A stretch of 64,000 nt of DNA from Pyramidobacter sp. YE332 (GTDB taxonomy: Bacteria > Synergistota > Synergistia > Synergistales > Dethiosulfovibrionaceae): positions 2,294,001-2,358,000 of the forward strand of contig NZ_CP133038.1 in NCBI RefSeq assembly GCF_033060595.1, written 5' to 3'. This document shows positions 21,500 through 48,103 of this stretch, one piece after another. Below the pieces are notes generated by a model. It was not told the origin of the DNA. It saw only the letters and a list, made by a program, of their open reading frames with translations, and made no database searches. Position numbers and translations under genes: made by a program. How positions within the stretch are numbered: the first letter of the stretch is position 1; each line of letters starts with the position of its first letter.

Positions 21500-22830
21500 A
21501 TGAACTCGAAGAACAAGGAAATTATCGTGATGGGTTTCGGTTTGTTTGCCATGTTTCTCGGCGCGGGCAACATTATTTTTCCTCCCTATATCGGGATTGT
21601 CTCCGGCCAAAAGTGGCCCGCAGGCCTCTTAGGCTTCGCCGTCACGGGAATCGGAATGCCTTTGCTCGGGCTGCTTGCCACATTCAGAGCCGGGGGCAAT
21701 ATCGACAAATTTGCAGGGAAGGTCAGTCTGCCTTTTGCAAAAGCCTTCAATTTTGCCATCCTTCTGTGTATCGGGCCGCTGTTTGCCATTCCCCGGACGG
21801 CAGCGACGACCTTCGAGGTGGGAATCCTTCCCCTTTTGGGGGCCTTTGACCCGGGGAGTATTCTGGGCATTTCCTGGAGCGCGATCGCGGTTTCCTTCAT
21901 CTTCTTCGCCGTCACGCTCTATTTTTCTCTCAATCCTTCCCAGGTGCTTGACCAGATTGGGACATACTTCACCCCTTTTTTAATTCTGATGCTGGGCTTC
22001 ATCATCGTCAAGGGAATTCTCGTGCCTATCGGCAAACCGGCCGCTCCTGTGGTCGACAACGCCTTTGCTCTCGGTTTCACCGAGGGCTACCAGACCATGG
22101 ACGCTCTTGCCTCAATGGCCTTTGCGAGCATCATCATGGCTGACATCATGGGGCACGGTCACGGCAATACTAAGGAAGGACTATCAATGGCCGTCAAGGT
22201 CGCTCTCGTTTCCATGCTGGGCTTCCTCTTTGTCTACGGAGGGCTTGTCTACCTGGGAGCTTCGGGGGAGAGAGCTTCGCCAATACGAAGGACGGGCACA
22301 CCGCCATCACGGTCAGACTCGTGGACGCTATCGCCGGCGACACCGGCAGATACGCCTTGGCCAGCGCCATGACCTTCGCCTGTCTGACCACAGCGATCGG
22401 TCTCACCACGGCGGTGGCGGGATATTTCGAAAAGCTCCTGGACAAACGGCTCTCCTATAGGGGCTTGGTCTGGATCATCGTCACCGCCAGCGCCGTCCTT
22501 TCGGTGTACGGGGTGAGGCACATCATCTCTTTGTCCGTACCGGTCCTGTACGCTCTTTACCCTGTGGCCATCGTCCTGATCCTCCTGAACTTGTTTGATC
22601 GGGGAATCACCCCCGGGGTCTACCGAGGAGCCGTCGTCGGAGCTTTCCTCATAGGGATCCTCTATGGCTTACAGCATGTGAGCACAGTTGCTGACCAAGC
22701 CAAAAATATGCTGGCCGCCATCCCGCTTGGGCAGGAGGGCTTTGCCTGGATCTTTACGAGCGCCCTCGGCGGGATTGCCGGAGCAGCCTGGACAAGGAGA
22801 CGCCGCAAAAACGCAGCGCCCGAAAAATAA
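21500..22830 (+). pseudogene. brnQ: Branched-chain amino acid transporter BrnQ (LIVCS family), frameshifted
   Basis: The N-terminal part (from ATG 21500) reads FGLFAMFLGAGNIIFPPYIG, the classical BrnQ start, and continues as many membrane helices to VYLGASGE. The rest continues in another frame (SFANTKDGHTAITVRLVDAI onward) to 22830. The break lies in the GAGAGAG tract at 22268-22274: removing two bases (or adding one) restores one ~443-aa transporter. BrnQ is a Na+- or H+-driven Leu/Ile/Val symporter. Composition is less GC-rich than the neighbours and repeat copies A and B bracket it, suggesting acquisition. A sequencing error is equally possible. Confidence 0.85.
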
Positions 22831-26203: not shown

Positions 26204-29200
26204 TTATCTCCGTTTCGACGCCCGCAGCAGACGCTTCAATTCTTCCATGTCGGCTTTCAGTTCGGCGATCTCCTGTGCCTGAGAAGCCATCTCGTGCGCC
26301 TGCGAGGTTACCTGCGCCTGCAGCTGCGCGTTCTCCTTCTGCATCACGTAGACGCTGCTCATCGGGCCTTTGCGGTAACGTTCGGGGATCTGTTCCTTGT
26401 CTGCCTTCCTGCCGATCCTCCACGTCAGCCCGGCGTTGGCCATCGACTCGCCGTGGTGGGTGACGGACACTCCGGCGTGGACCATGAAGTCTTCTTTCAC
26501 GTAGTGCGCCCAGCCGAGGGCCAGGGCGTATTCGCCTTTGTAGGCTCCGAATCCGGCCATGAGCTGGCTGGGTTCGAGCGGGTCGTACTGCATCGGTTTC
26601 AAGGCGCTCAGGGCGGAGCCGAGCGCGCCCGAGGTTTTGATGTCTCTGCGCAGGCGGTTGAGGTGGCTGTCGATGTCGCGGAGTTGGCCGAAGTTCCGGT
26701 ACAGGGTGCTGAACTCGCGGTCGACGGCGTCGAGGGCGTCGCTGACGCTGTGGTGGGTGGCGCCGCCGCCGATGGTCTTGAATTTGTACGCGGGGGCGGT
26801 GACGGAGCCGTCGGCTTTGGCTGTGGCGCCGCCGCCGAGGTGGGTGGCGAGGCTGCTTGCGGTTTTCCACAGCTGGGCGCCGTTGACGGCGTCGCTGCTG
26901 CCGGCGGTGAGGGGGCCGGCCTGGACGTGTTCGATTTTGTGGTGGGTTGCGTCGAAGCCTTGGGCGCTCACTTTGCCGGCGAAGACGGGGGCGTCGACGA
27001 CGCTCACGGTGACGTCTTTGCCGTTATGGGGCGGGTGACGGCGATGTTCTTGCCGTTTTTGAACTGGACGGTGTCGCCGTTGCCGATGGGGGTGGCGGTG
27101 TCGCCGTTGGTCTGGAGGTTCCAGGCGCCGCTGCCGCCGCTGCCGTTGGCGATGGCGTCGAGGATGTCCTGGTGCAGGCCGATGGTGACGACGCCGCCGG
27201 CGGGGTGGTGGTGACGTTGGTGACGATCTGGTTGGAGGCGCCGACGAACTGGATGTTGGGGGTCTGGTTCTGGGCGAGGGTGACGGTGTGGCTGTGGGGG
27301 TGCTCGCTCCGTCGCTGACGCTGAACTTTGCGGAGATGTTGGTGATGGGTGCGGTGGTGGTGTTGATCAGGGTCTGGAGTTTGGCGGGGTCGAGGCCGAC
27401 TCTGAGGGTGCGTCCGCTGACGGCGGTGGTGATGACGTCGCCTGTGGGGATGATGTCGAGGCGTTTGTGCGCGCTGTCGAGGAGGATGCCGGGGGCGGTC
27501 CCGGCGGGGTCGGCGCCGATGGTGTAGGTGGCGTTCTGTCCCGCGGCGAGGGTGGCGGCTTTCAGCTGGCCGTAGTTGACGGCGTCGCCGTTGGCTGTGG
27601 CGTTGGCGACGTTGGTGATTTTCTGTCCGCCGGCGTTCAGGCCGGCGGTGGTGATGTAGTCTTTGCCTCCGACGCTGACTTTGCCGTCGCTCAGGATGAC
27701 TTTATGGGTCGAGCCGACGGTCACTTCCGCGAATTCGGGTTTTTCGCTCATGACGAGGTCGAAGCCGTCGCCGGCGGCGTTCTTTTTCACGCCGAGGTTC
27801 TTGCCGGATACGCTGGCGCTCACGCTTGCCAGGCCGCCTTTGAGGTTCAGGGTCTGGCCGAGGGTGCGATTGACGGCGCCGTCGTTGCCGGCGAAGTTCA
27901 ATCCGCCGGACAGGGCGCCGGTGATGGTGGTGATGGCGCTGTTGTTGCTGATGTCGATGTTTTGACCGAGGTTGGGGTTGGCCTTCACGGTCACTTTCGC
28001 GCCGTCGCTCCCGTCGGCTGTCACGGTCACGTCGATCTTGTTCGCTTCGCCTGCGAACTTGATGTTCTTTTTGGACGCACCACCGAGGGTAATGTCCTGT
28101 TTCGTTCCGGCTTCGTTGCTGACGGTGAAGCCGCCGGCGAGGTTCTGCACGGTGGTATTGCTGGCGATCTGGTTGTTGATGGCGGTGTTCAGGTTGGCGG
28201 TGTTGACTTTGTACTTCACGCCAGCCGTGCCAACTTCGGATTCGATGATGTTGCCGTCGCCGGCGAACGTGATGATTTCCGTTCCCGTTTTGTCGGCGGT
28301 AATGGTTTTCGTTCCGGTCCCGGTGTCGGCGATCTTGAATTTCGCTTCGACGTTATTAATCACGGTGGAGCTGTTGTTGATGGTATTGCTCAGTGTCGAA
28401 CCGTCCAGGCCGATGGTGAGGCCGCCCGCGTCGACTTTCGTGGTGACGCCGCCGGCGCCTGTGACCACCAGCGGAGTGGCGCTGTTGATCAACTTGCTGC
28501 CCGGTACGGCTTCCGCGTCCTTGATCGTCCAGTTCGCCGTTCCGCCGATGGCGCCGGTCAGGGCCGCGGTGTCGAGGCTGTACTTCACGCCGTCGGTGGT
28601 CATGGCGGACTTGATGTAGGTGCCGTCGCCTTCGAATTTGACGGTCGGTTCGGTGTCCTTGGCCAGCGTTACGGTCTTCTTCGTTCCCGTTTCCGCAGTC
28701 ACGCCGAATTTGGCGCTGATGTTGGTGATCGGGGTCGTGGTCGCGTTGTTGATGTTGGTGATCACGCTGCCGGTGATGTTCTGGGCGAGTTTGGCCGTGT
28801 CGATGCCGTAGGTGACTTTGGTGCCGGTCAGGCCGACGGTCATGGTGTCGTCGGTCGTCGCGAACTCGATCGTCGGTTTGGCGCCGCCGAGGGCGACGTT
28901 CGACGTGGTGCTGCCGGCTTTCAGGTCGAAGCCGTCTTTCAACGCGTTGATGGCCGAATTGTTGGCGATGTTGAGGTTGGTTCCGAGGTTGGGGTCGGTC
29001 TTCACGGTGACGGTGGCGCCGTCGGAGGCGTTGGCTACTTCGACGAGGATTTTGTTGGCTTCGCCCTTGAACTGGATGTTCTTTTTGGACGCGCCGCCCA
29101 AAGTGATGTCCTGCTTCGTTCCGGCTTCGTTGCTGACGGTGAAGCCGCCGGCGAGGTTCTGCACGGTGGTGTTGTTGGTGATGGCGGTGTTCAGCGCCGT

Positions 29201-32018
29201 GGTGTTGAGGCTGTACTTCACGCCGTTCGCGGTCATCGCGGAGGTGATGTAGGCGCCGTCGCCTTCGAACTTGATGGTTTCCGTTCCGGTCTTGTCCGCG
29301 GTGATGGTTTTCGTTCCGGTCCCGGCGTCGGCGATCTTGAACTTTGCCTGTACGTTGGTGATCGGGGTGGAGCCGTTGTTGATGTTGGTGATCAGCTTGC
29401 TCTTGTCGATGCCGTAGGTGACTTTGGTGCCGGAGAGGCCGACGGTCATGGTGTCGTCGGTCGTCGCGAATTCGATCGTCGGTTTGGCGCCGCCGAGGGC
29501 GACGGGGCTGGTGACGGTTCCGGCTTTCAGGTCGAAGCCGCCTTTCAGTTTCGAGATGTCGCTGGTGTGCCCGGTCACCGTGCCGGTCAGATTGGCAATG
29601 TTGGTGACGTTCTGCTGAACGGTGAGATTGTTGGTGATGGTGCTGTTCAGCTTGGTCTCGTCCAGCGTGAAGTTCAGCCCGGCGGCGTTGACGATGGGTT
29701 TGATGTAGGCGTCGCCCTTGACGACCAGCGGCGTACTGGCGTCGATGACTTTGGAGCCGGGCGTCGGGGTCTGGCTGTCCTTGATGGTCCAGTTGGCCGT
29801 TCCGCCGATGGCGGCGTTCAACGCGGCGGTGTCGAGGCTGTACTTGACGCCGTCCGTAGTCATCGCGGATTTGATGTAGGTGCCGTCGCCGGCGAACTTG
29901 ACGGTCTGCGTGCCGGTCTTGTCCACGGTCACTTCCTGCGGACCGGTGCTGTCGCCGGCGATCTTGAACTTGGCCTGCACGTTGGTGATCGGGGTGGAGC
30001 CGTTGTTGATGTTGGTGATCACGCTGCCGGTGATGTTCTGCACGAGTTTGGTCTTGTCGATGCCGTAGGTGACTTTGGTGCCGGTCAGGCCGACGGTCAT
30101 GGTGTCGTCGGTCGTGGCGAATTCCACGGTCGGAACCGGAGTTCCGCCCAGCTGCACGTTGTTCGTCGTGCTGCCGGCTTTCAGGTCAAAACCGGCTTTC
30201 AGTGCGGTGATGTCGGTGCCGTGCTGAACGACCGTAGTGTTGCTGTTCACCTGATTGTTGATCTGGCTGTTCAGCGCTGTTGTGTCGAGGCCGACGGTCA
30301 GTTTCTTGGCGGCGGCGTCGTAGGCGGTCTGGACGTAGTTGACGCCCGCGAACTCCAGGGTGTCGCCGGCCACGATCGGGCCTACGCTGCTACCGGATTT
30401 GACGTTGAAACCGGCTTTCAGGGCGGTGATGTCGGTGGTGTGCCCGTTTACCGTGGTGTTCAGACTGGTGATGGCGCCGTTGTTGGCGATGTTGAGGTGA
30501 GTTCCGAGGTTGGGGTCGGTCTTCACGGTGACGGTGGCGCCGTCGGCGGCGCTCGCCACTTCGACGAGGATTTTGTTGGCTTCGCCTTTGAACTGGATGT
30601 TCTTCTTGGGCGCGCCGCCGAGGGTGATGGTCTGCTTCGTACCGGCGGCGTTGCTGACGGTGAAGCCGCCCTTGAGGGCGTTGATGGCGGTGGTGTGCCC
30701 GGTGATGGTGGTGTTGTTGGCGATCTGGTTGTCGATGGCGGTGTTCAGGTTGGCGGTGTTGACTTTGTACTTCACACCGCTCGTGCCGACTTCGGATTCG
30801 ATAATGTTGCCGTCGCCGGCGAACGTGATGATTTCCGTTCCGGTCTTGTCCGCGGTAATGGTTTTCGTTCCCGTCCCGGTGTCGGCGATCTTGAACTTGG
30901 CTTCGACGTTATTAAATCACGGTGGAGCTGTTGTTGATGGTGCTGCTCAGATTCGCGCCGTTCAGGCCGATGGTGAGACCGCCCGTGTCAACTTTGGTGG
31001 TCACGCCGTTTTCGCCTTTCACGACCAGCGGCGTGGCGGCGTTGATCTGTTTGCTGCCGGGCGTCGGGCTCTCGTTGTCTTTGACGGTCCAGTTGGCCGC
31101 TCCGCCGATGGCGTTGTTCAGCGCCGCGGTGTCGAGGCTGTACTTGACGCCGTTCGCGGTCATCGCGGAGGTGATGTAGGTGCCGTCGCCTTCGAACTTG
31201 ATGGTTTCCGTGCCGGTCTTGTCCGCGGTGATGGTTTTCGTTCCCGTCCCGGCGTCGGCGATCTTGAACTTGGCCTGCACGTTGGTGATCGGGGTGGAGC
31301 CGTTGTTGATCTGATTGATCACGCTGCCGATGATGTTCTGCACGAGTTTGGTCTTGTCGATGCCGTAGGTGACTTTGGTGCCGGTCAGGCCGGTGATCTG
31401 ACGGGTGACGCGCATACTGGCAGGGGTCGAAGAGCTGGTGTCGCCCACAGAAAGAGCCGCGCGCGTGGCTCTCCATTCTCGACCGTCTGAAGAGTTGCCC
31501 AGATATCCGAGCTGCCCCGCCTTTGTATCAGCTTTCGAGTAGCTGCCAAGGGCGACGCCGTCGGCAACAGTTACCTGACCGCCGATGGCAATGCCATGTG
31601 TGGCGGCTGTGGATGTCGTTCCCATCAGCGCCAGCGAGTCTTGCCCATCTGTTTCTGCATGAAAGCCCAGTGCAGTGGAACGCATACCTTTCGCTTTTGC
31701 GTTACTTCCGATCGCGAAAGATACACCACCCGTGGCTTTCGCATTACACCCTATCGCGTAACTTTCGTCGTCGGTCGCCCAAGCCTCGTACCCTATCGCC
31801 ACGGAATGATGGCCAAGCGCCTTGGCGGAAGTTCCTATCACAGACTCTGACACACTTCCCAACACGGCGCCCGAGCCAATCCTCAGATGATCCCCGGTAA
31901 CGTCGACACCAAGAGCGCTCCCCGCTCCCGTCGTTCCTCCCAGCGCCAGCGCCAGAAGCAGGGCCGCCGCCTTTCGTCCGAAAGGCGGCTTCCGCCGTCC
32001 CGTAACTTTCACTTTCAT
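26204..32018 (-). pseudogene. Trimeric autotransporter adhesin (YadA-like) 1, reading frame interrupted
   Basis: About 1,930 codons from ATG 32016-32018, preferred over the ATG at 32024 because GGGAGG then lies 8 nt upstream. Order: signal peptide (KAAALLLALALGGTTGAGSALG), YadA head repeats (SVAIGYEAWA, FAIGSNAKAKG, STALGFHA; 31.4-31.9 kb), a long stalk of repeated modules ([31 protein letters not shown]), and a YadA anchor ([17 protein letters not shown]... to [10 protein letters not shown]) followed by a ~50-aa coiled coil. These proteins form trimeric surface adhesins. The frame breaks at 30914-30916 (AAA where a paralogous module has AA) and is shifted between 27028 and 27300 by three apparent one-base losses in G-runs. 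It may be a real pseudogene, a switch, or sequencing error. Confidence 0.85.
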
Positions 32019-32125
32019 CTTCATGACCTCCCCGAAATATGCGCCGCGCCGTCCCGCTTTTTCGGCGCTCCGTCCGGCGCGACGCTTGTGGTAGCATACA
32101 ATAAGCTACTCTAAGAACGTTCACA

Positions 32126-32144: not shown

Positions 32145-32470
32145 GCGTAAAGATTACTTACTGTATGTATCAGCCTCCCGTCCGCAGCGGAGGGCGCCGC
32201 CGCGGTTCCCGCGGCGGTCGTCGGCTGCCGCGCCGGGGTCGGCGGATGCCGACGGAAACGGTCAAAATCAACAATTATTTTCAGAATTTATTTACCGAAA
32301 AACATCGTTAAAAACAGAAAACTTCATGAAAAACATCGGATCTCCGCCCGGCCCGCGCCGCGGATCTTCCCCGGGATCTGCCGCGCGATATTTCAGTGAG
32401 GAAACAAGAGGGACCGCCCCCGCCGCCGTCCGCAGGGCGCACGCGCCTTTTCGAAGGGCCGGCGGCAAAC

Positions 32471-45158: not shown

Positions 45159-46038
45159 GGGCTTGTTTAAAAAACATTTCAGCTTGTATTATTTCAATAA
45201 AATAACACTGGCAGCGACAAGAACAAAAGCGAAAAACGAAGCGTCAAGTTTGTCATAGCGGGTGAAAATTCTACGGAACCATTTGATTTTCTGAAAGAAA
45301 CATTCAACCAAGTGTCGTTCCTTGTAAACATGCTCATCTATAAACCACGGTTCGGGATTATCGCTCTTCGGCGGGATAGTGTAACTTCCCTCCCGAGAAG
45401 TAATGTACTCTCTGATGGCTTGCGAACCGTAAGCCTTATCGCCGATGACGTTGCTCCCTCTGATTTCCGCTTGCCCGAGCAAGGACACGGCATGGCGGGA
45501 ATCGTGGTCATTGCCGGGACTGAGCAGGAGCGCCAGCGGATTGCCTAAACCATCTACTATCGCATGAATTTTCGTATTCTTGCCGCCTCTGGACATGCCA
45601 ATCGCTTGAGCCCCTTTTTTCCCCCTTCCGGGGTTTTCCCTCTCCCGTTGGCACTTTGATGTACTTTGCAGGACGTGGAGTCGATAGAGAGATTTTCCAT
45701 GTCGGCATCAGCGCTTAGGGCGGCAAAGATCGCCTCGAATATTCCCCGCTGTTTCCACAGCCTGAAACGTGCGTAAACTGCCTGCCATTTGCCGTAACGC
45801 TCCGGAAGATCTCTCCATGGCGCTCCACTTCTGGCAAGCCACAGAATCCCATTGATGATCCTGCGGTTATCGTATTTTGCCGGGCGTCCACGTTGACCTG
45901 ATTTCGGGTGTTCGGGCGGCAGCATTCTCTTGATTCGATTCCACTCGCTGGAGGTCAGTTCATATCTTCTCTCTTCCATGAGAAAAGTTTAAGCGATTGG
46001 ATCGATTTAGGCAACTTTGACGTTTTTTAAACAAGCCC
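45159..46038 (-). mobile_element. IS5-family (IS427-like) element, copy 1
   Basis: 880 bp between identical 17-bp terminal inverted repeats GGGCTTGTTTAAAAAAC, flanked by TA on both sides, as expected for a YTAR-type target. Two overlapping frames encode the transposase. Its two encoded peptides are identical to those of copy 2 at 47224-48103, so duplication or acquisition was recent. Confidence 0.92.
45189..45979 (-). CDS. IS5-family transposase, two frames joined by -1 frameshift (copy 1)
   Basis: Frame 1 (45557-45979, 140 aa) carries the N-terminal part, WNRIKRMLPPEHPKSGQRGR and WLARSGAPWRDLPERYGKW. Frame 2 (45189-45596, 135 aa) carries the rest of the DDE domain: NTKIHAIVDGLGNPLALLLS, VIGDKAYGS and the Glu region VYKERHLVECFFQKIKWFRR. 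The frames overlap at the slippery sequence A-AAA-AAG, so a -1 ribosomal shift would give one ~260-aa transposase, as in other IS427-group elements. Confidence 0.88.
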
Positions 46039-47223: not shown

Positions 47224-48103
47224 GGGCTTGTTTAAAAAACGTCAAAGTTGCCTAAATCGATCCAATCGCTTAAACTTTTCTCATGGAAGAGAGAAGATAT
47301 GAACTGACCTCCAGCGAGTGGAATCGAATCAAGAGAATGCTGCCGCCCGAACACCCGAAATCAGGTCAACGTGGACGCCCGGCAAAATACGATAACCGCA
47401 GGATCATCAATGGGATTCTGTGGCTTGCCAGAAGTGGAGCGCCATGGAGAGATCTTCCGGAGCGTTACGGCAAATGGCAGGCAGTTTACGCACGTTTCAG
47501 GCTGTGGAAACAGCGGGGAATATTCGAGGCGATCTTTGCCGCCCTAAGCGCTGATGCCGACATGGAAAATCTCTCTATCGACTCCACGTCCTGCAAAGTA
47601 CATCAAAGTGCCAACGGGAGAGGGAAAACCCCGGAAGGGGGAAAAAAGGGGCTCAAGCGATTGGCATGTCCAGAGGCGGCAAGAATACGAAAATTCATGC
47701 GATAGTAGATGGTTTAGGCAATCCGCTGGCGCTCCTGCTCAGTCCCGGCAATGACCACGATTCCCGCCATGCCGTGTCCTTGCTCGGGCAAGCGGAAATC
47801 AGAGGGAGCAACGTCATCGGCGATAAGGCTTACGGTTCGCAAGCCATCAGAGAGTACATTACTTCTCGGGAGGGAAGTTACACTATCCCGCCGAAGAGCG
47901 ATAATCCCGAACCGTGGTTTATAGATGAGCATGTTTACAAGGAACGACACTTGGTTGAATGTTTCTTTCAGAAAATCAAATGGTTCCGTAGAATTTTCAC
48001 CCGCTATGACAAACTTGACGCTTCGTTTTTCGCTTTTGTTCTTGTCGCTGCCAGTGTTATTTTATTGAAATAATACAAGCTGAAATGTTTTTTAAACAAG
48101 CCC
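47224..48103 (+). mobile_element. IS5-family (IS427-like) element, copy 2
   Basis: 880 bp, the inverted counterpart of copy 1 with the same GGGCTTGTTTAAAAAAC ends and flanking TA. Both copies lie in the same 13-bp context ATAC-TA-ATTCTTG on the plus strand, although the IS orientation differs, which indicates site preference. Confidence 0.92.
47283..48073 (+). CDS. IS5-family transposase, two frames joined by -1 frameshift (copy 2)
   Basis: Frame 1 is 47283-47705 and frame 2 is 47666-48073, with protein sequences identical to copy 1. The slippery heptamer A-AAA-AAG lies at 47642-47648 in frame 1 phase (GGA AAA AAG GGG); shifting back one base continues as GAQAIGMSRGGKNTKIHA. The DDE domain appears complete, so this copy may be active. 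Confidence 0.88.

Follow-up and report, generated by a model that had tools for sequence, protein, structure and literature searches.

Three one-base run shortenings in a YadA-type adhesin gene of Pyramidobacter sp. YE332 as probable consensus errors

Three G/C runs within a trimeric autotransporter adhesin gene of Pyramidobacter sp. YE332 are each one base shorter than in intact copies of the gene in the same genome, and between them an ordinary adhesin segment is read out of frame as an Arg/Pro/His-rich stretch. The three shortenings are most probably (roughly 0.8) residual consensus errors in a multi-copy adhesin repeat, a technical origin that the error profile of the assembly makes likely, although short of proven. 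The window referred to throughout is the whole 64,000-nucleotide stretch analysed, positions 2,294,001 to 2,358,000 of contig NZ_CP133038.1.

The adhesin gene and its shifted segment

YadA_anchor (PF03895, E 5.8e-12, residues 1395-1452) and YadA_stalk (PF05662, E 3.6e-9) domains were detected with Pfam in the long open frame, and YadA head repeats (PF05658) in an ORF just upstream (Table 1), so that the two belong to one gene. Judged by its predicted domains, the gene would be an ordinary trimeric autotransporter adhesin of the YadA type. It extends further than the frame described in the original prediction, the head part forming a separate ORF. In the paralogue c1981 a single ORF encodes the head, stalk and anchor domains, and an intact paralogue has sequence matches to adhesins of known structure, among them BpaC and YadA-type chains (structure entry 1p9h is YadA itself). 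Like other members of the YadA family (type Vc), the window gene possesses a YadA head, stalk and anchor, and nothing notable sets it apart from them, the odd block being a frame artefact.

Table 1. Features of the adhesin locus in window coordinates
Feature	Coordinates	Strand	Observation
Run 1, G5	27296-27300	G on +; C run on coding - strand	All four paralogues have one base more
Run 2, G4	27202-27205	G on +; C run on coding - strand	All four paralogues have one base more
Run 3, G4	27028-27031	G on +; C run on coding - strand	One base shorter than in 3 of 4 paralogues; loss in common with L002
Out-of-frame stretch, Arg/Pro/His-rich	27028-27300	-	Ordinary adhesin segment in intact paralogues
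Adhesin 1 long open frame, encoding the stalk and the membrane anchor and containing the shifted stretch	26204-30775	-	ORF, translation, Pfam
700-bp block with five near-identical genomic copies	26801-27500	-	Paralogues 92-94% identical to the window copy
Adhesin N-terminal part (start resembling a signal peptide by eye, and YadA head repeats)	30912-32024	-	Ends in TAA TAA at the extra T

Translation of the long frame gives about 85 low-complexity Arg/Pro/His residues, including the letters RRHPPH, with adhesin-like sequence on either side. Three frame changes at runs 1 to 3 had been proposed from the letters alone, and a check of the runs together with a five-copy alignment confirmed all three positions. 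The losses total one codon and are hidden by the long frame, as had also been proposed, for that frame is open throughout. The + strand of the 700-bp block holds 20 runs of at least three G and zero of C, and the fact that all three losses fall in G runs is therefore without weight.

Comparison with paralogues and with strain C12-8

A search of the organism's own genome (2 contigs, 2.8 Mb) with the 700-bp block returned four further copies. In the five-copy alignment of the block, L003, L004 (c784) and L005 are full-length at all three runs, L002 (c284) is full-length at runs 1 and 2 and short only at run 3, and these run-length differences are the sole indels between the window copy and the near-identical copies. 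Two copies, c1268 and c1981, look intact and have none of the three losses. Three of the four paralogues read through the block in a single frame, L002 breaking at the third run, and the same three carry the peptides that restoring the runs had been predicted to yield, with few residues different. The window protein matches the intact 1,831-residue ORF of c1981 almost identically on both sides of the block and not within it, which bears out the interpretation of the Arg/Pro-rich stretch as a shifted reading. Relative to an intact copy, the lesion span contains six substitutions, three synonymous and three causing mild amino-acid changes, with no stop; one of the six also occurs in c1268. The original reading of three losses and a shifted adhesin segment is thus supported at the level of sequence.

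Pyramidobacter sp. C12-8 is a different strain of the same species (over 19,293 bp the two differ by 41 substitutions and 1 indel), and a match from it is 100% identical at the protein level across residues 6-264 of a C-terminal query. Its assembly is a short-read one in which contigs end at the repeat (C118 at window position 26985, C174 beginning at 32310), so that it offers nothing to set against the three sites and, ending exactly at the adhesin repeat, cannot settle the locus. Among the six genomes of a genus search, no further near-identical copy was found outside the organism's own genome except for short edges. A titles-level survey of the literature on Pyramidobacter genomes, nanopore sequencing and the adhesin returned nothing attributable to the present assembly.

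One-base run losses across the assembly

One-base losses in G/C runs are in excess elsewhere in the assembly. Two other regions were compared with C12-8 over 250,657 aligned columns, composed of 14 BLAST rows that exceeded both 96% identity and 1,500 columns (other rows were dropped); 1,359 substitutions and 55 indels separate the two assemblies there. Of the one-base indels that fall in G/C runs of at least four bases, the genome of the window is the shorter in 15 and C12-8 in 1, whereas one-base indels in A/T runs show no clear bias (12 versus 7). By hand arithmetic, the chance of at least 15 of 16 falling on one side under symmetry is 17/65,536, and a skew of this kind is an unlikely outcome of a two-way biological process, although part of the 15 differences may be real given that C12-8 is a different strain.

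Named metabolic genes are affected by the same type of loss. Branch_AA_trans, a branched-chain amino-acid transporter 5 kb from the adhesin block, has 443 amino acids in C12-8 and is here split into 290 and 169 amino acids by the loss of one G from a G run at window position 22264. The amino-acid permease frame is 462 in C12-8 versus 370 here, and that of ApbE is 397 versus 276. A longest-ORF test for frame breaks is noisy in GC-rich DNA, several sites being longer here than in C12-8, and named Pfam genes alone were therefore used.

At the background of 15 losses per 250,657 bp, approximately 0.016 one-base G/C-run losses are expected in 273 bp, and three were observed, indicating a local cluster and ruling out uniform background error as the sole cause. 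Another cluster, of three C losses within 400 bp, lies at 227,710-228,109, in a region that also carries a four-base indel between the strains.

Other repeats in the assembly give a mixed picture. Three near-identical segments of about 14 kb on contig 1, at about 1-15 kb (L107), 2,726-2,740 kb (L083) and 2,752-2,766 kb (L108), differ by 46 indel events, 44 of them one-base, versus 4 substitution columns, a ratio that is a mark of consensus error. One of these copies loses mostly C (16 C, 1 G) and another mostly G (11 G, 1 C); the two kinds of loss cluster at separate places along the segment, and in each of the three parts that were counted C runs are more numerous than G runs. All three copies lie towards the ends of the main contig, with a spacing of about 25.8 kb for the second and third, which could reflect a circularisation artefact of the assembly or a tandem repeat. 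Neither the rRNA operons nor the IS copies show a general increase of errors in repeats, though the 14-kb copies are rich in indels: in two blocks of the four rRNA operons (4,863 aligned columns) there are 2 one-base events and 5 substitution columns, and a single base is missing from 2 of the 23 near-full IS copies. These fairly clean repeats suggest that the repeat explanation of the cluster is only partial and that a local cause, such as poor coverage, is needed; ambiguity of the repeat or a local dip in coverage may account for the clustering.

Consensus error and its alternatives

Homopolymer-length errors are, according to PMC8812927, the commonest residual errors of long-read bacterial assemblies and often outlast polishing in repeats. 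The losses described here resemble such errors in being one-base run losses that break gene frames and in lying in a multi-copy repeat, but the runs are short (4-6) and a long-read method for the present genome is an assumption. As a consensus error, the cluster would have arisen if C runs were under-called in a repeat present five times in the genome and such short runs were then left uncorrected during polishing. The three shifts add up to minus one codon and the GC-rich alternative frames are free of stops between them, so that gene calling sees a single long ORF in which about 85 residues are spurious.

A lesion unlike the usual kind of error lies upstream, where an extra T at about 30914 (window 30900-30929) creates TAA TAA in the adhesin frame between head and stalk; among the motif-bearing places compared, it is confined to the window copy. 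The paralogue c784 carries an 880-bp IS with TA duplications at exactly the TA of the extra T (L080 6667), and the extra T could therefore be an excision footprint of that IS. The same IS occurs at another place in c284, the insertion points in the giant adhesins being L079 5878 and L080 6667. Two of the five adhesin copies, c284 and c784, are thus interrupted by the IS, which indicates that real inactivation occurs in the family; the genuinely broken copies may include that of the window. Two oppositely oriented copies of the IS, both with TA duplications, lie in the window itself (45159-46038 and 47224-48103), and the corresponding C12-8 contig is without both. The 23 near-full copies in this genome versus no near-full match in C12-8 point to a recent burst, to judge from copy number.

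The main rival is real pseudogene decay, in which an upstream inactivation (the stop at about 30912-30917) was followed by one-base slippage losses, a reading we regard as unlikely overall. It would suit the in-frame TAA TAA at the IS site of c784, the two further copies broken by the IS, the loss at run 3 that IS-broken c284 has in common with the window copy, and the absence of all three losses from the intact-looking c1268 and c1981. A decaying gene, however, would be expected to show more substitutions than the six found beside the three indels, none of them a stop, and outside this span the stretches of the gene that align with c784 (1,215, 630 and 513 bp) contain one gap in total, of three bases by their lengths. 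Furthermore, c784, although broken by the IS, has none of the losses in its 700-bp block, and the run losses in metabolic genes are of the same type. A bolder version, in which the cells truly carry the shifted stretch, the IS burst dismantling the adhesin family while three clustered slippages replace a stalk segment with a new Arg/Pro-rich linker, is considered highly improbable.

Runs of 4-6 bases are short for contingency loci. Phase or antigenic variation, with slipped-strand mispairing switching the adhesin, could draw on the presence of G/C runs in a surface adhesin and on the variation of their lengths among copies, but the locus has no long hypermutable on/off tract, only runs of 4-6 bases, and since the three changes cancel and the frame stays open, nothing is switched off. 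The other adhesin matches in the stretches sampled, near 230 kb, 269 kb and 2.50 Mb, lack a one-base G/C-run event in the comparison with C12-8, and this explanation has very little probability. Lower still is that of the Arg/Pro-rich block as a real protein segment under selection in the window copy, for which the open frame is the sole point in favour: copies that use another frame there share 96-97% identity with it at the DNA level, and the differences suit that other frame. Consensus error is accordingly preferred for the three shortenings.

That a frame is open does not prove the gene to be sound, as compensating run errors can hide within long GC-rich ORFs. Such errors can create false low-complexity domains, and comparison with paralogues from the same genome can reveal them.
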